Below, piece after piece: positions 22,352 to 52,204 of a DNA stretch of 64,000 nt; the first letter of the stretch is position 1, and each line of letters opens with the position of its first letter. Location: positions 134,247,282-134,311,281 of the forward strand of contig CP136062.1 in assembly GCA_032622095.1 (NCBI GenBank), given 5' to 3'. A model generated the notes under the pieces. That model was given only the letters and a program-made list of their open reading frames with translations. It searched no databases and was not told the origin of the DNA. Origin of the DNA: Siphonodentalium dalli (taxonomy: Eukaryota > Mollusca > Scaphopoda > Gadilida > Siphonodentaliidae). A program made the translations under genes and the position numbers.

Positions 22352-22544
22352 TCGTATCGAGGATATTATTCAATGGAACACCGTATTAAAAGAACATCCG
22401 GTCTCTTCTGACATTTTCTCAAAATATTGCCACATACATCGTGACACTGGGTGGTAAATAACTACCATATCTAACATATCAGAAAGATTTCATGTGATAC
22501 ATTATATAGTCGTGAAATATACCTACTATTTTGCAACTGACAAG
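22352..22544 (+). promoter_or_regulatory. Immediate 5' flank of NUDT15
   Basis: Probable 5' UTR/promoter of NUDT15 by position only. No TATA, initiator or other motif could be assigned with confidence. Confidence 0.25.
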
Positions 22545-22702
22545 ATGTCAAAAGAATCATTTGCAGCGAAAATTAGACCTGGCGTCGGCGTGGCGGTGCT
22601 CTTGAAAAATATACATCAACCAGATTGTATCCTGCTTGGACAGCGAAAAGGGATAACAGGAGATGGACTATTCGCTTTGCCAGGAGGTCATCTCGAATTC
22701 GG
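22545..22702 (+). CDS. NUDT15: NUDT15 exon 1
   Basis: Residues 1-52 plus two bases of Gly53. The donor GG|GTAAAT lies inside the Nudix box. Confidence 0.92.
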
Positions 22703-25700
22703 GTAAATGTAAAAAAAAATTAAATACATAACCCACAACTCCATGCGAAACAACTTCCCTGGATTTCCTCTCCAAATTTCTGAAAAACTAATATTGATTT
22801 TAGAAGCACCGATAGTTCTAGTTCTGAAGTATTGGGGGGGGGGGGGGGGGGGGGGGGGGGTAGGCCTAATCCCCGGGAAATTTCAACCGCACCCGCTCTC
22901 ATGAAGTTGGAATCTTCTAACTCATCTCAAGTTGTCCAACTGTTGGAAATTTCTAATCTGACATTGCACCTGCACCATGAGTGGAAATAAAAAGAAAACG
23001 ACCGAAAGTTAAATTCCGCAAATGTCGGGGGTATATATATATATATATATACTAGAAGGTGACCCGACTTCGTCCGGGTTTGACCTTGAATTGTCTATTT
23101 TGAAGGCCAAGGTCAAGTGGGGTCACGATTTGACCCGTCCAAAACAGTGCCCGAACAAAAGTACCCGACAAAAGTACCCGTCGAAATCCATCCGGTTTTA
23201 CCTGATTTGACCTTGAATTGACCATTTTGAAGGTCAGGTGGGGTCAAACACCAACACCCCAAAAATGGTGGAAATCGGCCCAGCGGATACCGGGAAATCG
23301 GCCCAGCGGATACCGAGATACCCTATGCATAAAATTTCGTCCGTAAAAATCCGCCAGTTTAACCCGATTTGATTTCCACTCAAGTATATAAACGCGCCTC
23401 ATATACACACGCTCATTAATTATCAAGTTTCAACGTAAAGATAAATTACCATCGGTGCCCGAGATATCGCCAAGACATCTGAAACAGTCAAATGCATCGG
23501 CCGGTTAAGCGTAGGGTTGAAACGATTACTCGACTAGTCGTAGACGACGCTGAAATGTCAGAACGTCGACTCTGAATTTTGCCGTCGACTAATCGGAACA
23601 TAGTGTATTAGTTCCATGTATAACGTTTTCAAGATCGATTCCGACATAAACGGTGTTAACTGCGTGTAAGTTACAGTAAGTTTTACGTTTGGTGACACCC
23701 GGAATTGACAGTGTTACTAGTATAGACACACACAGTGACCCGACTATTAATCGAAAGAATGAAATTGACAACACAATGTCTCACTCGTCGTTTGAGGTCA
23801 AAGACATCACTGCGACATGATGGCAATGATTGACGCGGCTTTATCGTTTGTCGGAGACCGCTTTGATCTAGACACTGTGTATATTTCAATTGATCAACTG
23901 AAGGTTGCTTAAGGTGACATCATTGTTGCTACCGTATATAAATGATACTGACATTAAGAACTGGCTATCGTATTCTACAACATAGCCTATTCTATAGGGC
24001 GTATTTAGTCGGAACATTAACATTTTATAGTGACACCGCTTGGCACCGGTTTATTGGTGATCACGTGACTAAACGAAATCTCGAACGCAGATATTAAATT
24101 TAAAACCTGTATAAATGATCGAGTTTCTAATTATTATCCACCACATGTCTAATTATATAATTACATTCAGTGTGTTGGATAAATATCAAGATGTTTACAG
24201 TATTATTTCCCAAATAAATTGGTGTCTATGCAGGGAAATGCGCTACGCAATAGACCGTCATCGCATCAGTCATCAGTGTACGCCATGTACGATGAATTTT
24301 CCGTACCATGTTATGTTTGAAAGTTTTGATATCGGGTACCGACTAGTCGACGCAACGCGACTTTTGGGTCTCGACTAGTCGACTCTGAAATTCACTAATC
24401 GTTTCAACACTAGTTAAGCGTTAACGTGATCTAACGTTATGACCTCTAACGACGTCATAGAAGTTACGCATTGTTTTTATCCTGATGGAAGATATAGTAC
24501 CACTTCTTCTTGATAATTGAGGCAGATAACTAAAACGGATGCATACGAATTATATATCGTTGGAAAGAGGAAACACGAAAGATTCTCACAGTGTCATTAT
24601 TATGACTGGCATTTTATTATTCGCGCTGTTTCGAATCGATTTGTAAGCACCGAACTCAAATGAAAGTCCCGTAACACAGCGTAAAAACAGATTTGACGTC
24701 GGCACGTGAAAAGTTGACCTCGGATCTGAAAATCAATAGGCCTATGTTACTCCTGACCCGAAAATACCCCCACATACCAAGTTTCATCGAAATCGGGTCG
24801 GCCGTTGTCGAGTTCATCGATTACACACACACAAACAAACAAACAAACAGATCTTCCAAAATATATAATAGATATATTTTTTAGACAAACCTATTTCCCA
24901 TGGTCTGTATATTCGAAAATGTGCAACTCCCGCGAGTTCCGATCCCAGAACATTTGCTATAAACGTGTAATAAACGTGCTATATGTAACTTATAACATAT
25001 TTTACCAAAATGAACTATGTAAGTATGTTGTACCACACAAGTTGTGCAGAGCGAAGGCAGTTATGGATTTTCATCCCATGGTCTATTTATAAATAGAATA
25101 TGCATGGGACAACACGCGTGCGCGTACGACGTGTGAGTTTATAGTGCAGCTTATATACTTTTGCTCACTTTTTCCTTTTAAGCGAAGAATGGATTGAATG
25201 CGCCGAGCGGGAGCTTATGGAGGAGACAGGACTTAAAATGAAAGATGCTTGCGTCGCTACAATAAATAACACAGTGCTTCTATCAGAGAAATATCACTAC
25301 GTTACCATCTTTGTTAGCGGACAACTCGACACTGACTATAAAACAGAAGCAGAAAATCTGGAGCCCCACAAATGTTATGGTGAGAATTTTACATGCCGCG
25401 CTTCACACTGAAACCATCATGTTAACATTTAAAATGCTAATGCAGTTATATATACTACTAGAAGGTGACCCGACTTCGTCCGGGGTTTGACCTTGAATTG
25501 TCTATTTTGAAGGCCAAGGTCAAGTGGGGTCACGATTTGACCCGTCCAAAACACTGCCCGAACAAAAGTACCCGACAAAAGTACCCGTCGAAATCCATCC
25601 GGTTTTACCCGATTTGACTTTTTAACCCGATTTGATTTCCACTCAAGTATATAAACGCGCCTCATATACACACGCTCATTAATTATCAAGTTTCAACGTA

Positions 25701-28700
25701 AGGATAAATTACCATCGGTGCCCGAGATATCGCCAAGACGTCTGAAACAGTCAAATGCATCGGCCGGTTAAGCGTTAACGTGATCTAACGTTATGAACTC
25801 TAACGACGTCATAGAAGTTACGCATTGTTTTTATCCTGATGGAAGATAGTACCACTTCTTCTTGATAATCGAGGCAGATAACTAAAACGGATACATACGC
25901 ATTATATATCGTTGGAAAGAGGAAACACGAAAGATTCTCACAGTGTCATTATTATGACTGGCATTTTATTATTCGCGCTGTTTCGAATCGATTTGTAAGC
26001 ACCGAACTCAAATGAAAGTCCCGTAACACAGCGTAAAAACAGATTTGACCGCGGCACGTGAAAAGTTGACATCGGATCTGAAAATTGATAGGCCCATGCC
26101 ACCCCCCGGCCGAAAATACCCCCACATACCAAGTTTCATCGAAATCGGCTCGGTCGTTTTCGAGTCCATCGCGATCACACACACACACACACAGACACAC
26201 ACACAGATCTTCCAAAAATATATAATAGACTAGCCGATGAGCCCGACGTTGTCCGGGCTATTCAAAAACCAAATTTCAAGTCGATAGCTCTACCCAGCCC
26301 GACGTTGTCCGGGCTATTCAAAAACCAAATTTCAAGTCGATAGCTCTACCCGTTTCCGAGATCTGGTCTGCGCATGCGCGAAGATGGCGTCGCACGGGCT
26401 CGGCGACCCGATAAAATTCCTATCCGGGGCAAGATACATTCACATACCAAATTTCAAGTCGATAATTGCTCCACCCGTTTCCGAGATCTCGTCTGCGCAT
26501 GCGCGAAGCTGGCGTCGCACGGGCTCGGCGACCCGATAAAATTCGTATCCGGGGCAAGATACATTCACATAGCAAATTTCAAGTCGATAGCTCCACCGTT
26601 TCCGAGATCTCGTCTGCGCATGCGCGAAGCGGTCGCCGCACGGGCTCGCCAATACGACAACGTCCACCGCCTGGTCAAACTACACACACGTACCAAGTTT
26701 CGTCCCGATCGGTCGAGAATCGTAGATTTGTATAAATGACAGACAAACATACAGACAGACAGACAAACAAACAGAGGTCTTCAAAATATATATGAGACTA
26801 GCCGATGAGCCCGACGTTGTCCGGGCTATTCAAAAACCAATTTTCAAGTCGATAGCTCTACCCAGCCCGACGTTGTCCGGGCTATTCAAAAACCAAATTT
26901 CAAGTCGATAGCTGTACCCGTTTCCTAGATCTGGTCTGCGCATGCGCGAAGCTGGCGTCGCACGGGCTCGGCGACCCGAAAATATTCGTATCCGGGGCAA
27001 GATACATTCACATACCAAATTTCAAGTCGATAGCTCCACCCGTTTCCGAGATCTGGTCTGCGCATGCGCGAAGCTGGCGTCGCACGGACTCGGCGACCCG
27101 ATAAAATTCGTATCCGGGGCAAGATACATTCACATAGCAAATTTCAAGTCGATAGCTCCACCCGTTTCCGAGATCTCGTCTGCGCATGCGCGAAGCTGGT
27201 GTCGCACGGGCTCGGCGACCCGATAAAATTCGTATCCGGGGCAAGATACATTCACATAGCAAATTTCAAGTCGATAGCTCCGCCCGTTTCCGAGATCTCG
27301 TCTGCGCATGCGCGAAGCGGGCGCCGCACGGGCTCGCCAATACGACAACGTTCACCGCCTGGTCAAACTACACACACGTACCAAGTTTCGTCCCGATCGG
27401 TCGAGAATCGTAGATTTGTATAAATGACAGACAGACAGACAGACAGACAAACAAACAAACAGAGGTCTTCAAAAATATATATGAGACTAGCTGGTGGGCC
27501 CGACTTCGTCCGGGCTATTCGTCCGGGCTATTTTTGGATTTCTTTGCCATAAACCTGACTATATGATCGTATAATTATATATGAGCAAGGACACGGTCGC
27601 ATGCGAAATTGGACCCGATTTGACCTTGAATTGAACATTTTGAAGGTCAACGTCAGGTCGGGGTAACGATTTGACCCGTCCAAAACACTCCCCGGACAAA
27701 AGTACCTAGGTATCAAATTTCGTCGAAATCCGTCCGTTTTAATTACCCGATTTGACCTTGAATTGACCATTTTGAAGGTCAATGTCAGGTCGGGGTCACG
27801 ATTTGACCCGTCCAAAACACTCCCCGGACAAAATTATCCCTAGGTATCAAATTTCGTCGAAATCCGTCTGGCAGTTTTCCCGGCCATTGCTGATAAACAG
27901 ACAGACAAACAGAAGTCCCAAAATATATATTAGACTAGAAGGTGACCCGACTTCGTCCGGGCTTTGACCTGAATTGACCATTTTGAAGGTCAAGGTCAGT
28001 TGGGGTAACGATTTGACCCGTCCAAAACACTGCCCGGACAAAAGTTCCTGACAAAACTACCCGTCGAAATCCATCCTGTTTTACCCGATTTGACCTTGAA
28101 TTGATCATTTTGAAGGTCAAGGTTAGGTCGGGGACACGACTCGACCCGTCCAAAACACCCAGTGGACAAAAGTAACCCTATGTATCAAATTTCGTCGAAA
28201 TCCCATCAAAATTCGCGATTTGACCTTGAATTGACCCGATTTCAAGGTCAAGGTCACGTCGCACGGGCAAATGAATAGGCTTATGAGACTCCCCACACGA
28301 AAGTATCCCCACATACCATGTTTCATCGAAATCCTGTGATATTCGGCCGTTTGACCTTGAATTGACCCGATTTCAAGGTCAAGGTCACGTCGCACGGGTA
28401 AATTAGTAGGCATATGTCACTCCCCGGCCGAAAATAACCCCACATACCGAGTTTCATCGAAATCGGCTTGGCCGTTTTCGAGTCCATCGATTACAGACAC
28501 ACACACAGACAGATCTTCCAAAATATATAATAGACTAGAAGGTGACCCGACTTCGTCCGGGCTTTGACCTTGAATTGTCCATTTTGAAGGTCAAGGTCAA
28601 GTGGGGTCACGATTTGACCAGTCCAAAACACTGCCCAGACAAAGGTACCCGACAAACGTGCCCGTCGAAATCCATCCTGTTTAACACGATTTGACCTTGA

Positions 28701-31700
28701 ATTGATTATTTTGAAGGTCGGGGTCACGACTCGACCCGTCCAAAACACTCAGTGGACAAAAGAAACCCCACGCATAAAATTTCGTCGAAATCCCATCAAA
28801 ATTGGCGATATGACCTTCAATTGACCCGATTTCAAGGTCAAGGTCACGTCGCACGGGCAAATGGATATGTTTGTGAGACTCCCCATACGAAAGTACCCCC
28901 ACATACCAAGTTTCATCGAAATCCCGTAATATTCGGGCGTTTGACCTTGAAATGACCCGATTTCAGGTCAAGGTCACGTCGCACGGGGAAATTAATAGGT
29001 TTATGCCACTCCCCGGCCGAAGATACCCCCACATACCAAGTTTCATCGAAATCCCGTGATATTCGGGCGTTTGACCTTGAAATTACCCGATTTCAAGTTC
29101 AAGGTCACGTCGCAAGGGCAAATTAATAGGCCTATGCCCGTTCCCGGCCGAAAATACCCCCACATACAAAGTTTCATCGAAATCGGGTCGGCCGTTTTCG
29201 AGTTCATCGCGAACACACAGACACACAGACAGATCTTCCAAAATATGTAATAGACTAGAAGGTGACCCGACTTCGTCCGGGCTATTCAAAAACCAAATTT
29301 CAAGTCGATTGCTCCACCCGTTTCCGAGATCTGGTCTGCGCATGCGCGAAGCTGGCGTCGCACGGGCTCGGCGACCCGATAAAATTCGTATCCGGGGCAA
29401 GATACATTCACATACCAAATTTCAAGTCGATAGCTCCACCCGTTTCCGAGATCTCGTCTGCGCATGCGCGAAGCGGTCGCCGCACGGGCTCGCCAATACG
29501 ACAACGTCCACCGCCTGGTCAAACTACACACACGTACCAAGTTTCGTCCCGATCGGTCGAGAATCGTAGATTTGTATAAATGACAGACAAACATACAGAT
29601 AGCTCCACCCGTTTCCGAGATATATAGCCCAATGTCATTTGCGGATACCTCGGCCGGTGATGAGTTAACGCGACATCGGCCGGTTAAGAGTTAACGCGAT
29701 CACGTCACGATATGTTGATGGCGTAATATATTTACGCAATGATTTTCGATGAGCGAAGCATGATCCTGCGTTCTTCCCGATAATTAAGGTAGAAACTTTA
29801 AACGTACACCGGCGTGTGATACATCATTGGAAAGATGAAGCGCCACAGATTCTAACCGTGCAAATTATACGACTAGCAATTTATTATTCGCGCTATATCG
29901 AATCGATTTGTGAGCACCGAACTGAAATATATTAGCGCAAAACGGCGTAAAAACAGATTTGACCTCGGCACGTGAAAAGTTGACCTCGGATCTGAAAATC
30001 AATAGGCCTATGTTAACCCCCGGCCGAAAATACCCCCACGTACCAAGTTTCATCGAAATCGGCTGGGCCATTTTCGAGTCCATCGATTACACACACACAC
30101 AGACAGATACACACACAGATCTTTCAAAATATATAATAGACTAGCCGATGAGCCCGACGTTGTCCGGGCTATTAAAAAACCAAATTTCAAGTCGATAGCT
30201 CTCGGCGACCCGATAAAATTCGTATCCGGGGCAAGATACATTCACATACCAAATTTCAAGTCGATAGCTCCACCCGTTTCCGAGATCTGGTCTGCGCATG
30301 CGCGAAGCTTGCGTCGCACGGGCTCGGCGACCCGATAAAATTCGTATCCGGGGCCACCCGGGCAAGATACATTCACATAGCAAATTTCAAGTCGATAGCT
30401 CCACCCGTTTCCGAGATCTCGTCTGCCCATGCGCTGCGCGGGCGTCGCACGGGTTCGCCAATACGACAACGACGACCGCCTGGTCAAACTACACACACGT
30501 ACCAAGTTTCGTCCCGACCGGTCGAGAATCGTAGATTTGTATAAATGACAGACAGACAGAGGTCTTCAAAATATATTATAGACTAGCCGATGAGCCCGAC
30601 GTTGTCCGGGCTATTCAAAAAACAAATTTCAAGTCGAAAGCTCCACCCGCTTCCGAGATCTGGTCTGAAAACCAAATTTCAAGTCGATAGCTCTACCCGT
30701 TTCCGATATCTGGTCTGCGCATGCGCGAAGCTGGCGTCGCACGGGCTCGGCGACCCGATAAAATTCGTATCCGGGGCAAGATACATTCACATACCAAATT
30801 TCAAGTCGATAGCTCCGCCCGTTTCCGAGATCTCGTCTGCGCATGCGCGAAGCTGGCGTCGCACGGGCTCGGCGACCCGATAAAATTCGTATCCGGGGCA
30901 AGATACATTCACATAGCAAATTTCAAGTCGATAGCTCCGCCCGTTTCCGAGATCTCGTCTGCGCATGCGCTGCACGGGCGTCGCACGGGCTCGCCAATAC
31001 GACAACGACCACCGCCTGGTCAAACTACACTCACGTACCAAGTTTCGTCCCGATCGGTCAAGAATTGTAGATTTGTATTAATGACAGACAGACAAACAAA
31101 CATACAGACAGAGGTCTTCAAAATATATATGAGATAATCCCCCAAAGACATATTGTGTGCTTATTATCGATGAGCCCGACGTTGTCCGGGCGACGTTGTC
31201 CGGGCTATTCAAAAACCAAATTTCAAGTCGATAGCTCCACCCGTTTCCGAGATCTAGTCTGCGCATGCGCGAAGCTGGTGTCGCACGGACTCGGCGACCC
31301 GATAAAATTCGTATCCGGGGCAAGATAGATTCACATACCAAATTTCAAGTCGATAGCTCCACCCGTTGCCGAGATCTCGTCTGCGCATGCGCGAAGCTGG
31401 CGTCGCACGGGCTCGGCGACCCGATAAAATTCGCATCCGGGGCAAGATACATTCACATACCGTATATCAAGTCGATAGCTCCACCCGTTTCCGAGATCTC
31501 GTCTGCGCATGCGCGAAGCGGGCGCCGCACGGGCTCGCCAATACGACAACGTTCACCGCCTGGTCAAACTACACACACGTACCAAGTTTCGTCCCGATCG
31601 GTCGAGAATCGTAGATTTGTATAAATGACAGACAGACAAACAAACAAACAAACATACATACAGACAGAGGTCTTCAAAATATATATGAGATAATCCCCCA

Positions 31701-38385: not shown

Positions 38386-38963
38386 ATAAAACATCTTTAA
38401 ATGCATTACAACTATTTGCAATGTTTTATATAAAAATCTGTTGTTTTTGTTGTTGGAAGTGTTTTTTCGGAAGCCCGAAGGGGCACCCTATCTATTATTA
38501 ATCAACTTATCAGTGATAATCTCCGAGTCTGAATGATACAATCACACAAATCATCATACCAGATAAAAGAGATTATCCTTGGTAGCATCCGGGCTTTTCC
38601 TAGTGACAGTTGTAGACTATTGTTCCAATAAATTGTCTAAAATTTCCAAGTTTGAATAGTGATTATTTCAAGTGTGAGGATCCCTCAAGATTTAATTTTA
38701 ATTTTTTGTCAATTGGTTAATGTATAAGTGCACGATGAACCATGGTTTAGTAACAGCAGGCAATAAATTGGCTTTCTGACCAGCTGGAGTGGCAATTTAA
38801 ATACTTTATTTTTCTCTATGGCAGGGTCACAGTCCCTATTCTAAATATGCTCAGGGTAGGATAATCTGTACACACAATCAGCTCACCCCCTTGCTATAGT
38901 GTTGGTGATGTAGTAATAACATCCTAATTAAATAATTACCTGGTTGTACCTTCCATTTTTCAG
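38386..38963. other. Immediate 5' region of ALPK1
   Basis: Holds the likely end of a 5' intron; the CATTTTTCAG acceptor ends at 38963. Promoter and first exon not identified. Confidence 0.35.
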
Positions 38964-38981
38964 ATTTAACTCCTTACAAGA

Positions 38982-39039
38982 ATGGATAGGAGAGAGAGCA
39001 TTCTACCAAACTTTAATGTTGATGTTAATGTGTCACAAG
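38982..39039 (+). CDS. ALPK1: ALPK1 coding exon 1
   Basis: Begins MDRRESILPNFN; 19 codons plus one base. Donor CAAG|GTGAGC. A CATTTTTCAG acceptor at 38954-38963 suggests the exon starts with 18 nt of 5' UTR, so an upstream non-coding exon is expected but not located. Confidence 0.8.
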
Positions 39040-42000
39040 GTGAGCTGAGCACATATCTAGTTCTGAATATGCTCTGTGACTTGCCAAAATATTTGGCAAA
39101 CAAGTACTCAATTTCACAGTGGTCGCTTAACCCTTCCATGTCTGAAGCTTCCTGAAATTTTGCAAAAACCCTGTGTCAATTAATGCATTCTCCTATATAT
39201 GCGAGTCTCCCATAGGGAGCCTTCGGATATAAGAGAATGCATTGACCTAACAATATTTACCTTGACATTGTAAGCCAGTGCATTCTCTTGTATATGCAAG
39301 GCTCCCTATGGGAGACTCACATATATAAGAGAATGCGTGACACAGGATATTGAATGCTACACCAGCACAGCTCCCACCATGAAAGGTTAAAACATGCATG
39401 TCACGAAGGTGAAAATTAGGAAAGTTAGTACCTAGTCATTTACAACAGGTAGTTAATCTGATTTGTATTTGAGACAGGTAGGGGAACTGTGTCTGATGAT
39501 GATGTTTATACAACTAGTCACCTTTCTGTTGAGGTCCCTGTGTGTAAGTTGATATACCTTATCTTTAACCCTTTCATGGTGGGAGCTGCGCTGGTGCAGC
39601 ATTGAAGACCCTGTGTCAGTGCATTCTCTTATATATGTGAGTCTGCCATAGGGAGCCTCACATATATAAGAGAATGCACTGGCTTACAAGGTCAAGGTAA
39701 ATATTGTTAAGCCAATGTATTCTCTTATATATGCGAGGCTCCCTATGGCAGACTCACATATATAAGAGAATGCATTGGCACAGGGTTTTCACAAAAAATT
39801 CAGGAAGCTCCAGTCATGAGAGGGTTAATTATATTGTGAGGGTGTTTGGTTTATTGTTTTATGATAATCCACCAGAGGAAGGATGAGAATATACTAAACC
39901 TAACAATTAGCTCCTGCTGGAATGTATTTATTTGTGGTTATGTGAATTTCGCCCAACATGTAGATGCATTTCAATTAAATTCAACGAAGATCAATCATCT
40001 TCATTATCTGAAATGACAAGTTCTGTTTGTTTAATTTATAATGTGTGTGTAAATTTCTAAATCAACGAAAGTCTTTAATTCATTAATGCCAAACCCCTAG
40101 CAAATTATATAGCCTGGCTGCCAGCCCCCATGAGCGATGTTATGACATATTATTATATTAGCATCAATCAGATACCATTTTTGAGTCATCTTCTGGCTGA
40201 TGGATGATGATTTCTAATGGCAAGTTCACCACACCTGTTGGTTTCATGGATATAAACTGATGGACGCTCATGTCTGCTGTAGACATACATTTGTGCTTTA
40301 ATATTTTAATGAGTTATTGCTAACTCTATGTCAAAATAAACTTGGTCGATGCCTTCATCTGTTGACATTGAGGCCCGTCTGAATATTGTCATCAAATTGT
40401 CCTGTTTGGACGATGTGATAATTATGTGATACTGCAGACTGTAACCACATCGTTGCCATAAAGCAAATATATTTTTAATTATAAATTTCCAATTTAATCA
40501 ATTAGCTAATTATTTCACTGTAATTGGTATCATTTTTTATCATAATGAATAGCACAAAAAGGGGGAAAGGAATAAAGTGAAAATATAACAACTTTGGTGA
40601 ACGTTATAATGCCATCACCTAGAGAGTTAAAATAGCCATTTAAACCAGTTGTTTAAACTAATGGGAATAAATGTTCCATAAAGCATGATGAATTTTGGTC
40701 CAACATCATTTGTCAACTTCTAAAAGAATTTGGCAAAAAAAAAATTCATTGGGCAAAATAATTGGCAAATGTGAATTGTGAGTCAGCGTGGACCCTGTTC
40801 TAGTTGTGTATTACCAATATTCACTTATCCATTATGTAAACTCATTGGTTGTTCATGATATGCCAAACAAACCTGGATCACATCAAAGCTTCTAATATAA
40901 AAAAGCTATAGTACTAGCTGAGTTGAAGGAATATCTCAACAGCTTTTTCGAAACTCATCAAGCTTCGTTCACAATGATAGCAGCTAGTGAATATTTTACC
41001 AACCAATGAATATGAATCATTCTGCTCTTGTATTATATGTTCTCTGTCTGTCTTCTGCTTTTATTACCTAATCACCCCTCCAATATGAGTCCAAATGAAT
41101 ATTCCAATGTATACTTTTATAACTGAATGGGAGCATTTGGATATTTATTGTAAACTTCTGATATATAATAACAAATAAGAAGATTGTGTGTAATTGTATT
41201 GTTGTAAATTGATTCTTTGCAACCAGAATACATCTTTATTTGTTTCTATTTAGATGTGCTAGCAGAGATTTATGGCCATGACATTGATTCAGCTGTGCAG
41301 AATCCATTGCGATGTTTGGAGGCATGGTTCGCTGTCCTGCCAGATAACATCCAAGAACTAGTTGTAAATGCCGAGGCACAGATGTGGCCATTCCTGCCCA
41401 ATGATGTCAGCCACAACTGGATTTTCCAGAAACATTCTAAGTTTACTGACATATCACACATTGAAATTCTGCTGGTAAGTAATTATCCAATCTCTTATTT
41501 AGAGGGACTTGAATGAAAAAATATCATAACAGTTTATAAACCATCATCACTATGAAGAACATGGAAATATATATAGATTTGTGTCTTATTTTTTATAGCT
41601 CTCTAATTATGAGATATCACATGTTAAAGATGGATTATCTCTTTAAATAATAAATTTTAAATAGTTTCGTGGTTGGAAAATAATTGATATGAACTGAAGA
41701 CCCCTGTCCGGAAAAGCTTCTATCAATTAATATTGATTTTATTTCGAATATTAAATCGGGACCGTGTATGTGCCTATTTTTAGAACAGACCATTCGGATG
41801 ATATAGAGCACTGGGCTGTTCCCATCATGATGGCTGCGCACCGAAATCAAAATATGCCAGATTGATTATGTGTATTGTGTTGTTCCACATATATAAGCGA
41901 TAATGAGTATAATTAACGTTTATTTGTGACAAAATTGTACAATAAAATTTCTGGTCTCTGTTAACAGTAACCACTATTGTTCGTTAGCCAAACAACTACA

Positions 42001-45000
42001 CCTTTTTAGACTAGAAAATATTCTAAATAAAATTAATATTAATCGATAGAAGCATTTCTGGACAGGAGTCTTTGATTCAGATCTAATATTTTATACCCCG
42101 GTAACTATATAAAACATGTTTACAAAGAGATAATCCACCTTTAAAGCCATTGTTCGGTTTGTTATGTCAAAAATACTGTTATTAAAGTGCCTGCCATTTT
42201 ATCAACAAAAAACTTGGCAAATTCTGATAAAATCATGAATGTTTATATAACAAAAGATCAGAGAAATGAATAATATTCCAGAAAATGTAGATTTTCAGCA
42301 AAACATTTGATTTACCATGTCAATTTGTGATGTTTGTTGATAAAGTGACTTGCACTATGCACTGTAACATTAATGTTTACATAACAATAGTTTCAACATG
42401 TAAAGTCTCGTCACCAGAGAGTTGTCAGTATTAAAAATAAGAACAAATTTAAGTCCATATACAGTAATGCCATAAATAATCAGAGAGCTTTCCGATGAAT
42501 GGCAACAAGCCATATTTCCGACAAAATCCTGAAAAGTTACCCATAATTCTGCTGTGGTTAAGGAGTCGATTATTTAGGGCATTACTGTATTTCTCCATTT
42601 TCTTCGTATAGTGATGATGGTTGTACAAACTTTTATGATTTTTCACATTTGCCCATTGCGATTGCCATGTCACTTTAATTCCTGACTAGATTCTTTCATT
42701 CAGTTCTAAAACGAATAAATTCAATTTGGAATGGTCCAAATTTCATTTGTATAAAGATCATCAGACCATATAGGTGGAGAGAATGCCCTATTCATCCCCA
42801 TTCATTCATTTTAGGAATGTTCGGATAATTAATAAGTTGAACGATTATTTAATATCCAATATTTAATTGGCATAATATCTTTTGTTGACAGAGATGTCTT
42901 GACATGGCAATACAAGCTAAAGAATTTGAAAAAGCTGCAGCCTTGGCATTTGTCATCGACCGATTCATGTACAGATATGGTGGATCTTCAGTTCTGCTCA
43001 ACATTGTTGATAAAATTTCTCAACTGGCTCCTAATGTTGTCATAGCACCTCAAGTTATCATCAGAAAGGCGAGAGTAATGAAAGATAATGGAAATCTACA
43101 TGGCGCGATGAAAGTACTTGACCAGATGATTGATCGAGCAGGTATTAAACAACTTATGAATAGTAAATAACTTGTCTGCCCATTACAACACATTGAAATT
43201 TGACAATACATTTTGTACATTGTACTTTGTCATACTTTGGGTAATCTTGCCTGTGAATCTTCTACATTTGCATAAAAATTCAGTTGACGGTAACCAAATT
43301 GTTGTTAAAACCAGATAGTGAGTTTGTATTAATTTTATATTTTCACTTCTGTCAATGAAATTGAGAAAACACTAATTTTTTAAACTTTTGCCATGACCTT
43401 GTTTTTACTCAAAACTGTAGTTTTATATAAATAATGCATCCCGGCCAACTATGCCTAAACAGTGGTCCGCAAAGGAAAGTAGTTCACCTGTCGCTCATGG
43501 ACAATACTTTCTCTCTTAAAATTCAACTCCAAACCCTGCATTATCTATTGAATATCACATTATATATCATATCAACCTACCGGGGAGAGCTTTCCGATGA
43601 ATGGCAACAAGCCATATTTCCGACTAAATCCTGAAAAGTTACCCATAATTCTGCTGTGGTTAAAGAGTCGATTAATTAGGGCATTACTGTACATTGCCTG
43701 CTGGTTCTCTAATGGTTTTGAAGAAGAAGGTTGTGCTGTTTTTCGATTTTGGAGAGGGACTTATTTTGACAATTCGAGAGTCTATCGGACTTAATGAGCT
43801 TATACCGGTACATTTTTTTTCAGAAGGCAAATGGGATTACAAGAATGAGAACCAGTATCTAAATGTTGCTACAGTGTGTATACAAATCAAAGGCCACATC
43901 TATCATAATCTTGGTAAGTATAAAGTTTGTGTAGAAAAGAGATGTAATTATTGGAGTACCAGTATTAATTTAGAGATCATATTATCAGACTTGGCACATG
44001 GAAAGCTGGCAAAGTGATAATTACAAATTCCATGATTCATTTTATTCAACTTGCTAGTTCTTCATTGCCATATTATTGTCATCAAATTACAGCTGTTAAG
44101 TCAAATGTCGGTAACTTGAAAACCCCACTTAATTTGAAGTCATTGTCTGGTCATAGCTGATTCTGTGTGAAAAGTCAATAGAATAAACATGGTTAAGTCG
44201 AAGGACGATAAATCAAAATTCCTGTTTCAGGGAAACAAAATTTAGTCCCAGCCAGCTTATAATTTCATAACACTAATTTAACTATACATTGTTTGTTGAA
44301 CTTATCATCTGAACATTTCAATGAATATAAATCCTTCTGGTCTTGTATTATCTTTTTTTTCTGTCTGTCTTCTTCTTATATATCCTGAACACACCAATCA
44401 ATAACAGATTATTCCAATATCCACCGTTGTGTGGGAGAATCCATTTTGTATAGATGATACCCTGATGTGATTGCAGTGTATAAACACATTTGGCTCAGAT
44501 CACAGACATATAAATCGCAAACCGACTTTTATGTGTTTGTGATTGGCACAAATGATTTCATATTGTGTAATTATTATGTAAGATAATGTCATCCCAGTGA
44601 AATGGGACGACCTGAAAATGAGTTGGAAATATTATTAAATATCGGGAAGTGTTGATGTCATTAATTTTGCTGTTGTACTAACAACATTGTAATTCCTACA
44701 TTTATTATCACTTCTGTGCCAAATTTTAAAATGCTATAGAAATGAAGTGGATGTAACTATTTAGGAAATTAATGTAGTTTGTGTGCATTTTTGGAGTGAT
44801 AATGCGTTGTCACGGTGACCATTGGGCACATGTGTGAAGCAGTTTACACCAAATTGCTGTAACGGCCACAGTGCATTATCCCTCAATAAACCACACCCAA
44901 ACTACCATTTTCGAAGTAGAATTTGCTGATAATTTTCTTTTCCGGAAGATAAATTGAATATAATATTTGATAGAATTTTATGAAACAGGTTATATGGTTT

Positions 45001-48000
45001 TCATATGAAAAAGTCCAGTATGTGGATTAATTACATGATAATACAGGTCAAGTTCAAATTTGGGTCTCATCCGACTATTTCTGACACAGATATGACCTTT
45101 TTCATTTCAGACCTTTTGCCATCGAGGAGGAAGTTTTTTAGTAGCAGAAATAGTTTCTTCATGCCAGAAATTTTGACTTCTTTGTTCTTAAAAAAGGCAA
45201 TGACCCAAAAAGCCAACAGTCCAAAAATCCACCTCTTTTTATTCTGGTGTCTAATCAAATATGTTAACAATATTGACAGTTGAAAGGTACGGTTGGCCTT
45301 GGCAGTGGGTATCCTGTGAAAATATTTCCACCCGTCAAAAACCGCCACAAACAGAAAGAACATAAAAATGTAGACAGACTTTATCCGTATACAAATAAGA
45401 AATATCGCATAAACAGTATGTTATTGTCATATTTTTTACCATTGCTATGTAAACAAAAGCATAAAAAGTTACTTTTCTGGTGTTTGTTTATATTATGATG
45501 GTAAACATAAAGAGCGTTCTTTGTGGGTGAATTCCTGATATAGAACGAATAAAGAGCGTTTATGCCATTTGTGTGTGATTAGTCAGTAGCATTTTGCTGT
45601 CCTCTGTAACCCAATCAGGCTCTTGCTTAGGTAAAATATAGTAAATCTTTATGATAACATGCTGTTTACGCAATGGTCATGGTATATATGAACGAAACTG
45701 TATGCGTTTTAATTATTTTTTTGGTTACAGTGATTGGAACAAATATGAATATTTTCGACAATTAAGGCCTCACGTGCCTTTGAAAGCAAAGTTAGATTCA
45801 AGGATTGTTCCCAGAATCAAATTTTTCATTTCTAAAAGGTCACTGGTCAAATAAAGCCACCTTATTCGGGGGGACATGCGGCCTAGCAGCCTTTTATTTA
45901 TATAACTTGTTCCATATTTATTTCCACAATATCAGCTTAAATAATATTTACAATATGGAGAAATCTTATACCATGCAGCACATTAAGATATCCCAATAAT
46001 CTACCTCTAATATACAATCGATCAATTTAATCTATGGTTGCACGTCGTTTAAAAAATATGCCCAATTATTCTACCAACTGCATTTAGGTCAACAATATGT
46101 GATGAGCAACGAACAGGATTTAGTGTAAAAAAACACAGGCTATCTTTTTATTCAGTTTAATTTATTCAACTATTTCTATTTTCACATTTTTCAGGGTTAT
46201 GGAAGGAAGCTATCGGTCCACTTGTTCAAACAGTTCATGGCTTCAATCAGCTCAAAGATGACAAGGGAACTTCAAGCTCCTTAAGTTTACTGTCACGGTG
46301 CCTCAGTAAACTCAACAATGAGGAGTATCAGCAACTCAAGCGTGTATATAGCTTCATGTACAACAGCCCCTTCTATGAAGCATATTATTGTGGAATGGTT
46401 GCATTGTACTACGCTCCAATTGATAACCTGTTTATGGCAAAACATCAGGTGATTTATATTAAATTCACATACATTGATGCTACTCAAGGGCCTTAACATT
46501 GGGTACATGTGGACGATTATAAACCTATAGATTTTTAAAATCTGTTATTTTTTACCACCAGGAATATTTGGCGGCTGGCAAAAATCAGCTGACTTCTTAC
46601 AGAAATAGTACAGGCATGCATGCCGTTATGGGATGTCACTGCTCGATATACCATCAGCGCATCGGTGGTGATAGAAAATTAGTTCAGTATTAAAAGATGA
46701 TGAAAAGTGTCGCCATCAACAAGAATATGGAATATTGTGATAGTTGATGTGCGGATACATGCATTATACTTATTTATGAATCGGTAATCATGTTTTATCC
46801 ATGCATATATTCATGTTATATGGCACCATGCTGGTTACAAATGGAGTTTACATTCGTGATAACAGTTGTTGTGGAATTCCAATTTGAATTAGGAATCACC
46901 ATATATGGAAGTTGTAAATCACACTCGCTGACCTCAAAACTGCCAAGAAACTGTTATTGTAGGATTTTTACGGCAAATATGATATGATGATTGGTATTGT
47001 TGTGAGTATTTTTAATGGTAATAAACTAATTTGGATAACTAAATTTGCTTTTGGTGAAATTCCGTTGTTGTAGTAACTGGATGATAGAGGGACCATCAAA
47101 TCAGATTATGTACCTTTAACATGTCAGTTTGTGAGTGGAAATTCAGATTATGAAGCAGTGAATTATTATTTCTCTATCTGTTGTAGCTTGTTGCTGATGA
47201 GAATCTCCTGATGTACACTGTCAATCTTGGTTCACAACAAGAGAATTTGCTGCATACTGTTCTGCATGATCTGAAAATCAGTTTGCGAGCGCACAAGTCT
47301 ATTGATATCCTACAGGCATCAGAACAGTTCTATGAGTTCATCAGAGCGGTGTTTGTTGCAAGTCTTATTCTACATTTATCACCGTATGCAATGGATGGTA
47401 AACTTAGCTCATACTTTGAAGATGTTAGCCTATTTTTATACCAAGAGTATTGTAGAAGACATCTAGCCGGAGAACATCGTGGGAGAACAGTGAAGGCAAT
47501 GAATTCTGCTTTGACGTTGTTAGGAATTGAAAGTCTGGCCGGAAGTGAGCTCGTTGAAGAGAGAACATCGGGACAACCTTCAGAGAAATCTACAACTGAA
47601 GAGGGTCCATCCGATGAGGAAGCCAACAAAATTGAGCCTGATGAGTCACATGACACAGATTTAAAGTCCAAAGATACGTCATCCTGGGTTGATGGGATAA
47701 AGGTTGAGAAAATGGTACGCCATCTTGCTGGAACAGTTCCAGTTAGGAGAGCAGTTCAGGTTGATAAAAGCAGACAAGACAAAGCCATTACTGTAGCAGG
47801 AGATAGCGTGGATACTATTTGGAAGGAACTGAGTCACCATGGATGCAAGTATGGTAGGAAGTTTGTCGGTTTGCCTGCTGATCCAGAAGAATATCTTGCT
47901 AAATTTGATTTGAGACAGATCAGGAATATTGAGTCCATAGATGCATCTGTAGAGATTCAGCCAGTTGTGAATGTTAATGCCACAATACTTTCGACAACAG

Positions 48001-51000
48001 AAAGTGGGAACATACAGTCATCTACAACAAAACTGTCATCATTGTCTTCAGATTTGGCTTCAACAATCTCGTCACCTGCGGAAGACTCCAGTCTGGCATC
48101 AACAGAACCAAGTCCATCAGGTTCCGACAGTCAGTTGAATTCATCTAATTCCAGCAGTGCTTTAGGCGATCTCTTTCTGCCAATGAACAAGTTTTATTCC
48201 AATAGTGTTGCTATCCTCAATTTTGTTGACTCCGCTGGACACTATATCCCAGTATCAAGGCAGACCAACACAGGAATAATTGCACACCCTGCTATCATCA
48301 AAGAACAAACTCCTGTTGTTCGGAAAATCTCCAGTAGCAGAGAGAGCGGTGACATCTCTTCAGTTAGTTCATCCACTGATGTCAGTTCAACAAAATCATC
48401 TATTCTTGATTTGCCAGACTCAGCGGAAGAATTATGCCAGACATTTGAGAGTCTTGGGATTGGTTCAGGAACATCATCCACTGATCCTGCCGAATTCTTA
48501 AGCAGATGGCAACCCTCTGCTAAACGTACGAAGGACGGATACACAGTACAACGTAAATATATATTTTGACTTGATTTTTGGATTTTCCGTGCAAAGTTTT
48601 TCATTTTGTGGATTCAACAAAATAGAATACGTACAGTTCAATTATATAATGCTTGTAGACTTCATGATGCAACCCAATTGAATTGATTGATTTTTTGTGG
48701 CATGGCTCACATGATCAGGAGATTTATTCCTTTGTAATTATGCAAGAAAACATAGAGCAATTAAAAAGATTCAACTGAAAAATTGAATTTAAGAGATATA
48801 TTTCTAATGAAGAAGTAATTCAAAATGGATTTAGAAAAATAGTTATTGCATAGAAATCCGTAGTTGGCACTCTACATCCCTACATTTGTTGCCGAAGATG
48901 CCTTAGATGATGCTGCCATGAAAATAACTTGATTAACTTGCATTGGACGTCACCTAGAGAAAAGCAAACTATAGAACAGTTTTCATTGTGATTTGTTCTC
49001 TGGTGTTTATAAACTTAAAATAAATGTTGATCCCAACTATTTCAGGATCAAACTTGTGGACATATAATCCAGAAAATGGACAGTGGAATGGGCAGAGTAC
49101 CCTGGCTATGATTGGTCCAGAGATCCCTGTGGAGAAAAAAGGAAATTGTCGTAAGGTTTATGAAGTGAAGTTCCTTCATCAAGATGAACCACTGGGAAAG
49201 TTAGTATTTTTATACCCCCAATTTTTGAGAAAAAAAATGGATGGTATACCGGATTGACTTTGTCAGTCAGTCAGTCCATCTTGACATATATCTCAGCCAT
49301 GGGTTATTTGATTTGGATGGAATATGGGATAACTGTTCAACACTGGGAGTGCTTTCAAAAGAGCTACCCGTAGGGCACAATGGTGTTTTTCACATGTTTG
49401 TCCCACTGCATCTCGATCTCTTCAGCCATGTGTTATAATATCTATCTCAATGAAATTTGGTATGGATGTTCACAGTCACAAGGGTTTTCAATGAAGTGTT
49501 ATTGATGTTCGCATTTCACCATTATGCCTTGGATTATTTTATATATGTGTTCCGTCCTGCTCATATTTTGATTTGCCATGGCAAGGATGTATGCCAACAC
49601 CCGAGGTGCAACCTCTTGTTCCATCGGATTCCATCCATCTGAGACCAAATATGTAAGGCTACAATAAATTAATGTGATGTGGAACACTCCGCTTGGGCGA
49701 CTCGGTGGGAATAGAGAATAAACCTGCTCAAGCTGGTTCTTCTCATAATATTTTGTATCCAAATTCATTAATTGGCAGCAGACAACGCCATTCTTATATA
49801 TGGATCATATTCAGTGACCCTCATTGGCAGAATCATTGTCGTTTGTTTATTGGCTTATTTTTATATATAAATTCGTCCCAAATTAAGGAGTAAATATTTA
49901 TAATTACACGTACTTCAAACGTTGTGTTTTCTGAAGTGGTATTATCTAATTTATTGAAATATTCAACAATATTAAAGATGATCTATCTCTTTGTAAACAT
50001 GTGTTATAGTTACCAGGGTATAAATATTATATATGAATCAAAGACCCCTGTCCCGAAATGCTTCTATCGATTAATATTGATTATATTTCAAATATTTTCT
50101 GGTCTAAAAATGCGTGGTTGTTTAGCTAATGAATAATATTTGTTACTGTTAACAGAGACCAGAAATTTTATTGTGTAATTGTGTCACAAATAAACATTAA
50201 TTAGACTCATTATCGCTTATAACTATGGAATAAAACAATACAGACAATCAATCTGGGACATTTGATGTTCGGAACGTAGCTATGGGAACACTCTAATGAT
50301 CTCTATCACTACATGGTATTGCCTGAATGGTCCATTCTAAAAATAGAACAACAAAGTGTCCATTTAAAATCATCTCATTTAATAATAAAATATTTGAAAT
50401 AAAATCAATATTAATTGATCAAAGCATTTCCGGATATGGGGGTCTTCAATTCATATTTATTATTTTATATCCACGCAACTATTTCAAAATTGTTATATGA
50501 AATGATAATCCACCTTTAATTTATTGCCACATTCCTCCTGTTAGCATAGATTCTAGGTACTCACTTGTCTGTTTGAGTTACTAAAATAAGCACACAATAT
50601 GTATTTAACCATTTTCAGGTATGTGGGTAAGAGATACATATTAGAAAGATCACCACAGCAGTATCTCCAAGACACTATATGCCAGATGCTTGCTCGATAC
50701 TATGTCACAAGCTTCAACCAGAAGTTGCAGACCTTGCAAGGCAACCAGTCTACATTCCAAGTATACTATCTCCCAGTCTACCATCTACAGATGCTGTCAG
50801 AAACTGGTAACCTGGAATACTGTGTCAACGTGGAGCCTTTTCTCAAAGGGAAATTTGAGAAAATTACAAATAATCTCAACCATCGAAATGATACTATGAC
50901 TATGGTAAAGGGAGATGAGTTGAGAGACATTTCAACCGCTATATCGCATTATTCCTATTGCATGACACAAGGTCATTTGATGCTGGTTGATATCCAGGGT

Positions 51001-51207
51001 TTTATGCCATTGGATGGGACTGGTATTGTGTATTTAACAGACCCTCAGTTCCACACTGTATCTTCATCTACAGTCTCCCTGGATAAGTTCTGCACTGCAG
51101 ATCATGGGAAGAATGGAATGGATTCATTCTGGATGAACGTTCATCCCTCCTGTAATAAATTCTGTGGCCTTTTGAGTTTGAAAAGACCAGAATCACAAGA
51201 CCGTTAA
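38982..51207 (+). CDS. ALPK1: Alpha-protein kinase 1 (ADP-heptose sensor kinase), 8 coding exons
   Basis: Exons 38982-39039, 41254-41474, 42892-43141, 43824-43913, 46195-46448, 47187-48552, 49046-49199 and 50619-51207 join in frame to 993 residues (human ALPK1 1244). Known of the family: ALPK1 binds bacterial ADP-heptose in the cytosol through its helical N-terminal region and phosphorylates TIFA to start NF-kB signalling. Seen: sensor-region blocks MWPFLPNDV, IAPQVIIRKARV and VCIQIKGHIYHNLG within residues ~20-291; a Ser/Thr-rich acidic linker within exon 6 (to residue 746); and an alpha-kinase domain from ~747 to the end. The domain shows YVGK with Lys802 (aligned by eye with human Lys1067), VDIQG (Asp922), LTDPQ (Asp939, Gln941) and a HPSCNKFC zinc-type cluster (His973, Cys976, Cys980). 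A possible 5' UTR splice acceptor ends at 38963. Introns 2, 3, 4 and 7 carry MITEs and other repeats; the exons are undisturbed. Confidence 0.93.
39127..39390 (-). mobile_element. piggyBac-like hairpin MITE in ALPK1 intron 1
   Basis: TTAA at 39127-39130 and 39387-39390. Ends CCCTTCCATGTCTGAAG and ...CACCATGAAAGG. It contains two hairpins of the TGCATTCTC(C/T)TATATATGCGAG type. Opposite orientation to the copy at 39565. Confidence 0.8.
39565..39828 (+). mobile_element. piggyBac-like hairpin MITE in ALPK1 intron 1
   Basis: TTAA at 39565-39568 and 39825-39828. Left end CCCTTTCATGGTGGGAGCTG, right end CCAGTCATGAGAGGG. Two near-perfect hairpins at about 39615-39684 and 39712-39779. Confidence 0.82.
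39829..41253. other. ALPK1 intron 1, remainder
   Basis: About 1.4 kb of AT-rich intron with no other repeat shared in the window. Confidence 0.45.
41254..41474 (+). CDS. ALPK1: ALPK1 coding exon 2
   Basis: Residues 20-93, DVLAEIYGHDIDSAVQ onward, ending HIEILL. Acceptor TTCTATTTAG, donor CTG|GTAAGT. It holds the conserved MWPFLP block of the N-terminal sensor region. Confidence 0.92.
41624..42144. mobile_element. M1 palindromic MITE, copy a, in ALPK1 intron 2
   Basis: Ends TTAAAGATGGATTATCTCTT and CTTTGTAAACATG-type complement, finishing CCACCTTTAA. Internal inverted motifs include CCCCTGTCCGG(A)AA.GCTTCTATC and AACAGTAACC. TTAA borders both ends and may be the duplicated target. Confidence 0.75.
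42465..42587. mobile_element. M4 MITE, deletion derivative, in ALPK1 intron 2
   Basis: Left CAGTAATGCCATAAATAATC is followed directly by one arm (GAGCTTTCCGATGAATGGCA to GGGCATTACTG); the other arm is lost. TA borders both ends. Confidence 0.72.
42892..43141 (+). CDS. ALPK1: ALPK1 coding exon 3
   Basis: Residues 94-176, RCLDMAIQAKEFEKAAAL onward, with IAPQVIIRKARV, the best conserved stretch of the ADP-heptose-binding region. Acceptor TTGTTGACAG, donor GCAG|GTATTA. Confidence 0.93.
43582..43689. mobile_element. M4 MITE, single arm, in ALPK1 intron 3
   Basis: GAGCTTTCCGATGAATGGCA through GGGCATTACTG, 135 bp before exon 4. Short open frames here are by-products. Confidence 0.7.
43824..43913 (+). 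CDS. ALPK1: ALPK1 coding exon 4
   Basis: Ninety bases, residues 177-206, with YLNVATVCIQIKGHIYHNL. Acceptor TTTTTTTTCAG, donor CTTG|GTAAGT. Confidence 0.93.
45284..45603 (+). repeat. Dispersed repeat R, copy 1, in ALPK1 intron 4
   Basis: About 320 bp that recurs inverted at 61632-61957. Shared landmarks: GGGTATCCTGTGAA, AAACAGTATGTTATTGTC, GCATAAAAAGTTACTTT and ATTATGATGGTAAACATAAA then GAGCGTTCTTTG. Class unknown. Confidence 0.7.
45604..46194. other. ALPK1 intron 4, 3' part
   Basis: Unrecognised intronic sequence before exon 5. Confidence 0.4.
46195..46448 (+). CDS. ALPK1: ALPK1 coding exon 5
   Basis: Residues 207-291, GLWKEAIGPLVQTVHG to FMAKHQ, helical repeats of the sensor region. Acceptor CATTTTTCAG, donor CAG|GTGATT. 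Confidence 0.92.
46449..47186. other. ALPK1 intron 5
   Basis: No repeat or motif recognised. Confidence 0.45.
47187..48552 (+). CDS. ALPK1: ALPK1 coding exon 6 (large linker exon)
   Basis: Residues 292-746. It finishes the helical region (LVADENLLMYTVNLG, then FYEFIRAVFVASL) and carries the whole low-complexity linker: an acidic stretch (GPSDEEANKIEPDESHD), serine-rich runs and DPAEFLSRWQP just before the kinase. Human ALPK1 likewise carries a long poorly conserved linker here. Donor CAAC|GTAAAT. Confidence 0.9.
48553..49045. other. ALPK1 intron 6
   Basis: No repeat or motif recognised; the frame would read a further five codons into this intron before a stop. Confidence 0.5.
49046..49199 (+). 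CDS. ALPK1: ALPK1 coding exon 7 (start of alpha-kinase)
   Basis: Residues 747-797, SNLWTYNPENGQW to EVKFLHQDEPLG. Acceptor CTATTTCAG, donor AA|GTTAGT. The split AA + G codon gives Lys798. Confidence 0.9.
49209..49450. mobile_element. Helitron/pearl-like fragment in ALPK1 intron 7
   Basis: Begins TTTTATACCCCCAATTTTTG with an inverted partner AAAATGGATGGTATA, then GTCAGTCAGTCAGTCCATC and ATCTCAGCCATGGGTTATTT, the reverse of the core at 10850-11113. Confidence 0.55.
49640..49910. repeat. Old dispersed repeat related to the 485-bp unit
   Basis: Shares ATGTGATGTGGAACACTCCG, CAACGCCATTCTTATATA and CATTGTCGTTTGTTTATT with 62590-62830. Diverged, in ALPK1 intron 7. Confidence 0.55.
49972..50519. mobile_element. 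M1 palindromic MITE, copy b, in ALPK1 intron 7
   Basis: TTAAAGATGATCTATCTCTT ... GATAATCCACCTTTAA. Same internal inverted motifs as copies a and c. It ends 99 bp before exon 8. Confidence 0.75.
50619..51207 (+). CDS. ALPK1: ALPK1 coding exon 8 (alpha-kinase catalytic part)
   Basis: Residues 798-993 with YVGK, LEYCVNVEPFLKGKF, LMLVDIQGF, YLTDPQFHTV and the HPSCNKFC cluster, then TAA at 51205-51207. Acceptor CATTTTCAG. All motifs of an active alpha-kinase are present. Confidence 0.95.
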
Positions 51208-52204
51208 AAATAACTACATGTGTTCTCAGGCAATACTATAGAGGTTTCAGTTCTAGCTTGTGGCTTGTAAGGTAAATGACAGGATAACATAGTGACAGTG
51301 AATTCGAGACAACAAAACCTAATATTTGTAATTAGGAAACATCTCGTTACTAAGGCTGCAAATAGTGTGTGTCATTTGCAGAATGAGGTCCTCCAGAGGA
51401 TGAATTTAGTGATGCTATACCATACGGTGGGCTAGCATACCAAATTCACTCTCTGGAGACCTCATTCTGCTCAGGCCTCATCTTCTGGGAAGTATCTATA
51501 GTCTAAAATTAACATTGTTTTTAGTTACTTTTTCCCTTCTGTTCAGTTTCTGTATCCCATAATTTGCAGGAGACAAAATGCATAATCGAGGTGACTAATA
51601 GGTGAACATCACCATTTACAACTGGGGAACTTCAATCTGATCCTATGTCTCCCATAGCTGTTGAGGTCTAAGCAGAGTGACGTTCCCAGAGGGTGAATTT
51701 GGTGATGCAAGCCTGCCGTGCGGGATAGCGTCACTCATTCTGCAAATGACAGACACACTATTTGCAGGTTTGCTAATTATACTGATTTTAAACAACACTT
51801 TGGTTGTCTAATAATGAGAGTGTCTGCAGAAGTGATAACTCTGTAGATGTTAGTATAAAGAACTTGTGATAATCAGTTGAATTATAATTGGTTTTAATTT
51901 TGAAGGTTCAATCATCTTAGTTGATTCTATTATTATGACTAAATCTGACCTATCCTCAAATTAGATTGAACTGATCGGACACCTTGCGGAAATGGCAGAT
52001 TAATGCCTACAAGTTACAGGCCATAATCTACAAGCAGAACCTCTGTAATATATTGAAAATTTATGAGGAGGAGAGGCTATCTGTATTTTTGATCAGAAAT
52101 TCCAAAATTAATTAATGTGTAGATTATTTTTTGGAATAAAATCCTACAATTTTCAAAGGTATACAAGCTCATTTTCAATGCATTTTAGTCATTAATGATG
52201 CATA
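51208..52204. other. 3' flank of ALPK1 with M5 foldbacks
   Basis: Contains two M5 hairpins, about 51365-51475 (GAGGTCCTCCAGAGGATGAA and complement) and 51655-51775. AATAAA at about 52134 is a possible polyadenylation signal, unsupported by anything else. Confidence 0.5.

Follow-up and report, generated by a model that had tools for sequence, protein, structure and literature searches.

Human ALPK1 is the closest described system. R150 is needed for its activation (PMC11614533), and the same is reported for R153 and K233 (PMC10723048). The hydroxyl group of T237 holds the sugar and shuts out human nucleotide sugars, and the variants T237A and T237M answer to UDP-mannose and ADP-ribose (both PMC11614533, section 3.5). 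Small changes of the pocket therefore shift the ligand. In a human ALPK1 variant, Lys1067Met abolished signalling.

ALPK1 and TIFA are said to be absent from invertebrates (PMC11573728), and the evolutionary account of that paper places heptose makers among protostomes and sensors in vertebrates only. According to PMC12457700, neither TIFA nor ALPK1 is present within invertebrate lineages. ALPK1 occurs as a Swiss-Prot name in a snail transcriptome table (PMC5693929), and beyond this table no other mention of an invertebrate ALPK1 was found in the open-licence literature, as far as its accessible text goes. Judged by its sequence, the ALPK1 of the scaphopod Siphonodentalium dalli described here contradicts the vertebrate-only claim of PMC11573728 and PMC12457700.

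The genome searched comprised 2.23 Gb in 9 contigs, and the gene was read from positions 38700-44400 and 45900-51500 of the window (the whole stretch of 64,000 nucleotides that was analysed). Between 38982 and 51207, eight exons, with a GT donor and an AG acceptor wherever these are expected, splice in frame to 2982 nt encoding 993 residues (Table 1). The initial annotation had proposed an in-frame model of eight exons and 993 residues; re-reading returned the identical extent, with GT-AG at all borders. The sensor blocks it had quoted (at residues 144 and 194) and its kinase motifs (K802, D922, LTDPQ at 937 and HPSCNKFC at 973) were all found as stated. The start codon is the first ATG past an in-frame TAA (38967-38969). 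Because the AG upstream of it follows a pyrimidine run, which was also read directly, a further 5' UTR exon upstream of exon 1 is suggested.

Table 1. Positions of the ALPK1 gene and of the TIFA-like candidates (positions in the window unless a contig or locus is given)
Feature	Position	Strand	Content
Probable splice acceptor AG of first coding exon	38962..38963	+	Read directly
Exon 1	38982..39039	+	Begins with the start ATG; residues 1-19 plus the first base of codon 20; donor gtgagc; without homology support
Exon 2	41254..41474	+	Residues 20-93; sensor domain begins; F66 = human F61
Exon 3	42892..43141	+	Residues 94-176; IAPQVIIRKARV block; R151, R154 = human R150, R153; R117
Exon 4	43824..43913	+	Residues 177-206; WDYKNE and VCIQIKGHIYHNL blocks
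Exon 5	46195..46448	+	Residues 207-291; D228, K230, S234 = human D231, K233, T237; F286 = F295
Exon 6	47187..48552	+	Residues 292-746; probable end of sensor domain, then linker
Exon 7	49046..49199	+	Residues 747-797; alpha-kinase region begins
Exon 8	50619..51207	+	Remaining alpha-kinase: K802, D922, LTDPQ, HPSCNKFC; stop TAA
FHA-like candidate on C2	C2:139502090-139502230		Within a 548-residue frame
FHA-like paralog on C1	C1:266625558-266626091		395-residue frame; ATG 372 codons before stop
Frames of the two related FHA-like proteins	L026 2295-3941; L042 859-2046	both -	

Several other features were observed in the window. Intron 1 of the gene contains nested inverted repeats (39182-39791; arms up to 110 nt, 93% complementarity) that look like short mobile elements. 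Two exon-like frames on the forward strand gave weak NUDIX matches (22458-22703, E 0.0075; 25145-25408, E 0.0028), both below the cut-off, and probably belong to one Nudix hydrolase gene. A weak match to Schlafen AlbA_2 on the reverse strand (14430-14657, E 4.7e-4) was also below the cut-off. A 456-residue open frame at 17542-18909 on the reverse strand is a retroelement with a reverse transcriptase (RVT_1, E 3.3e-30). Several tandem arrays with a unit of ~122-131 bases lie at 26316-31537, and because of them many chance open frames occur there on both strands.

The best PDB match of the kinase half of the predicted protein was ALPK1 (9j4p, E 1.8e-40), and that of the N-terminal half (residues 45-256) was the ADP-heptose-binding domain of ALPK1 (5z2c, E 1.7e-30). 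The next family was eEF2K (E 2.4e-7). The kinase is closer to ALPK1 than to eEF2K; ALPK2 and ALPK3 were absent among the PDB matches and are thus outside that comparison. In Pfam, the alpha-kinase alone was found (E 1.1e-34). Given these E values for both halves and for the Pfam domain, the similarity to ALPK1 is beyond chance. K802 aligns with human K1067, and D922 sits in VDIQG. Human K1067 and V1092 are kept in the kinases of both S. dalli copies (the second copy is described below), each of which is identical to the human kinase at 83 of 225 residues. The kinase had been called 'apparently active': the known catalytic residues K802 and D922 are intact, and activity is predicted on this basis. 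At the level of sequence, the analysis confirmed that this invertebrate ALPK1 is real, complete and under constraint and that it retains most known ligand contacts.

Searched against the genome, the Pfam alpha-kinase model gave six matches: the window gene, its copy on contig C6, a locus at C2:202.53 Mb and three pieces at C5:151.30 Mb. The kinase at C2:202.53 Mb matched 4kuj best (E 3.4e-18), with ALPK1 at E 2.4e-4. The three pieces on C5 carry the VVDVQGVGDLYTDPQIHT motif, which we take to be of the eEF2K type.

The origin of the genome was assessed as well. A homeodomain search with a limit of E 1e-8 gave 28 matches. Fourteen loci were read, and the closest Hox-type matches among these form one cluster (C7, ~77.3-78.8 Mb). 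One of its genes, with a KLTGP tail, is presumably Lox5-like; two others we take to be Lox2/Lox4-like and one Post2-like. Because a single Hox cluster contains Lox5- and Post2-like genes, the genome is considered lophotrochozoan, and the single weak match of the Ig C1-set (E 4e-4) fits this reading. The assignment as an invertebrate ALPK1 in the initial annotation is thus borne out by the best matches of both protein halves and by the Hox cluster. The mollusc haemocyanin model PF14830, which had no positive control anywhere, found nothing in the genome, and neither did hemerythrin at E up to 0.001. Two homeobox frames 47 kb apart in the cluster (C7:77673389, L032; 77720567, L033) are identical over the 86 residues listed, which suggests that they were duplicated recently or that the assembly is faulty here. 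The invertebrate side of the ALPK1 survey was this one genome; ALPK1-like names may exist for further invertebrates in sequence databases.

Nine human pocket residues were scored. Four were derived from papers (R150, R153, K233 and T237); the other five, F61, Q67, R116, D231 and F295, are presumed ADP-heptose pocket positions, reportedly those of the 2018 structure paper. The human sequence used for the alignment agrees by eye with the PDB chain where this is shown. The initial annotation had linked an origin of ADP-heptose sensing before the vertebrates to the preservation of the ligand contacts. These are largely preserved: F61, R116, R150, R153, D231, K233 and F295 are retained (7 of 9, five of the nine positions being presumed), and the substitutions are T237S and Q67I. 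Compared with a background of 73 of 208 identical residues over human 40-259, this corresponds to a rough hypergeometric p of 0.0099, with F295 lying outside the background stretch. Of the four paper-derived positions alone, three are identical; R150, R153 and K233 are all kept (3/3, chance p 0.042). The second half of the sensor aligns weakly with the human protein (24 of 164 identical). As the alignment past human residue 259 is weak, the assignments of F295 and S277 are uncertain; S277 aligns with Glu in both S. dalli copies within this unreliable stretch.

A second full-length ALPK1-like gene was found on contig C6 (57859111-57880444), with the sensor matched in four pieces and the kinase in one. 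Nine exons were delimited, with a product of 1032 residues; the first exon of this gene was not found, and one linker intron has a weak donor (GTTTGT). The best PDB match was ALPK1 at both ends (E 5.2e-39 and 1.1e-16). The exon borders were set at GT/AG sites close to where homology to the window gene ends and are therefore not wholly independent of the window model. All six comparable introns of the two genes agree in codon and phase, which supports the window exon model. The two copies are identical at 176 of 403 sensor residues (residues 20-430), 119 of 289 linker residues and 155 of 245 kinase residues. The sensor domain probably continues into exon 6. The linker had been described as wholly diverged: it is indeed unlike the human linker, but its identity to the paralog means that it is not unconstrained. 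Over 937 aligned codons, the first position differed 406 times, the second 295 times and the third 604 times. The excess at the third position argues for constraint, and both copies look old and constrained. The C6 copy keeps only four of the nine human pocket residues (p 0.23), with F61M, Q67F, K233H, T237A and F295Y. It probably reads another nucleotide sugar or serves another role. Its divergence at T237, which is altered in one form of ROSAH syndrome, is a natural experiment.

A search for TIFA in the same genome, suggested with the initial annotation, returned weak TIFA-like candidates only. With human TIFA and E up to 10, there was one unconvincing match (C3:119760832-119760993, E 4.39). 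It was rejected because its frame reads as a NIPP1-like FHA, presumably that of NIPP1/PPP1R8. An FHA search gave 21 matches; 20 loci were read, and the C2 locus alone appeared TIFA-like by eye. Six further FHA exons were also compared with both profiles (TIFA and the two FHA-like proteins of Table 1). Among the matches listed (E up to 13), the C2 frame was the sole FHA exon beside TIFA. It aligned with TIFA columns 9-131 at E 0.032-0.042 (short copy of the frame) or 0.17-0.34 (longer copy), and hhalign gave P 0.0016 and a probability of 15.8%. The NIPP1-like exon outscored it on the TIFA profile (18.6 vs 11.2 bits) and reached P 2.3e-5 in hhalign, over only 35-46 columns of the FHA core. As this control exon scores as well, a TIFA-profile score alone means little. 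Searched alone against the PDB, the C2 candidate had no TIFA match, and the C1 protein had no match at E up to 10.

The C1 and C2 proteins are 35% identical, and no third copy was found in the genome. Their joint profile had TIFA as its best PDB match (E 0.071 over 88 columns) and gave 63.8% and P 6.6e-5 against the TIFA profile in hhalign. With 15.4 and 12.2 bits, the two proteins beat 4000 shuffles (maximum 5.7). Pfam FHA scored 21.1 bits on the C2 protein in the genome search (cut-off 20.7) and 17.7 bits on the whole frame, and did not match the C1 protein at E up to 5. The TRAF6-binding motif P.E..[aromatic/acidic], which human TIFA carries at 176, is absent in both frames. An acidic Thr stretch precedes the FHA-like part in both proteins; a Thr of C2 stands opposite TIFA T9 in one hhalign comparison only, and the later profile alignment begins past T9. 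The C2 candidate lies 5.2 Mb from the window ALPK1, which may be chance because their shared contig makes up 10.5% of the genome. Both proteins are weak TIFA-like candidates, not TIFA. Rel-homology exons were found at two places (C5 and C6). The bacterial-type heptose nucleotidyltransferase model TIGR02199 found nothing in the genome at E up to 1; its 14 control genomes were exclusively prokaryotic, and it matched in 12 of them.

Most likely, an NDP-heptose-gated kinase is older than the split of protostomes and deuterostomes. The window ALPK1 likely senses NDP-heptose, and from its sequence we infer that it answers to ADP-heptose. Judging by conservation, the helical N-terminal domain would bind microbial NDP-heptose in the cytosol via conserved Arg/Lys residues. 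Binding would turn on the C-terminal alpha-kinase, of which the residues are seen and the activity is predicted. The kinase would phosphorylate an adaptor, speculatively the two TIFA-like FHA candidates (C2:139.50 Mb; C1:266.63 Mb), and a defence response would follow. On this view, the sensor would already have existed in the last ancestor shared by protostomes and deuterostomes, or earlier. As a whole, this explanation (heptose gating, adaptor phosphorylation and defence, all before that split) is moderately probable. The Rel-homology exons and the negative TIGR02199 search also count in its favour; Q67I, the weakly aligned second half of the sensor, the unconvincing TIFA match and the TRAF6 motif missing from the candidates weigh against it.

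A heptose pocket is favoured because R150, R153 and K233 are kept and T237 is replaced by Ser. The same positions bear on the possible, though unlikely, reading that a true ALPK1 uses its N-domain to bind a different nucleotide sugar, which might be made by the animal itself, and that heptose sensing is a later vertebrate refinement. The response of human T237A and T237M to UDP-mannose and ADP-ribose (PMC11614533) would agree with this, as would T237S and Q67I in the window copy and K233H and T237A in the C6 copy. However, D231 is kept in the window copy along with R150, R153 and K233, and Ser at 237 retains the hydroxyl. It is improbable that the N-domain is now a scaffold and that this true ALPK1 has a role apart from microbial sugars: the pocket residues are kept above the domain background, even if the genome has no convincing TIFA, the candidates lack the TRAF6 motif and the linker is likewise conserved between the two copies. 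A contaminant, a vertebrate gene or a chance splice model is hardly credible. The gene sits inside a 235 Mb contig, the kinase is far from identical to the human one (83/225), and a second full-length copy with the same introns exists on another contig.

The heptose-gated ALPK1 thus remains the preferred reading. Its extension to a bilaterian NDP-heptose pathway, in which the window copy would be the heptose reader, the C6 copy (K233H, T237A) would read another sugar and the adaptors would be free of the TRAF6 motif, is rather doubtful. If true, cytosolic NDP-heptose sensing would be a bilaterian, not a vertebrate, immune pathway. The age of ADP-heptose sensing becomes testable with one expression construct.

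Compared with known systems, the two FHA-like proteins have TIFA as their nearest, if weak, PDB relative and may resemble it in an acidic Thr stretch, but they have a long Pro/Gln/Asn-rich tail and no TRAF6 motif. By sequence, eEF2 kinase (E 2.4e-7) and Dictyostelium myosin heavy chain kinase A (E 1.8e-6) also have the alpha-kinase fold, but their matches lie far below that of ALPK1 and leave the N-terminal half unmatched. The C6 paralog shares the whole architecture, the comparable introns (6/6) and the kinase residues with the window gene; it differs in its pocket (4/9), lacks the Y[RK]NE stretch and has two extra linker introns. Human ALPK1 (5z2c, 8zd3, 9j4p) differs from the window protein in most residues (identity ~35%, 73/208, over human 40-259; 37%, 83/225, in the kinase), in a dissimilar linker and at T237S and Q67I, and the S. 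dalli genome has two copies. The order of sensor domain, linker and alpha-kinase is the same in both proteins, as are R150, R153, K233, K1067 and V1092.
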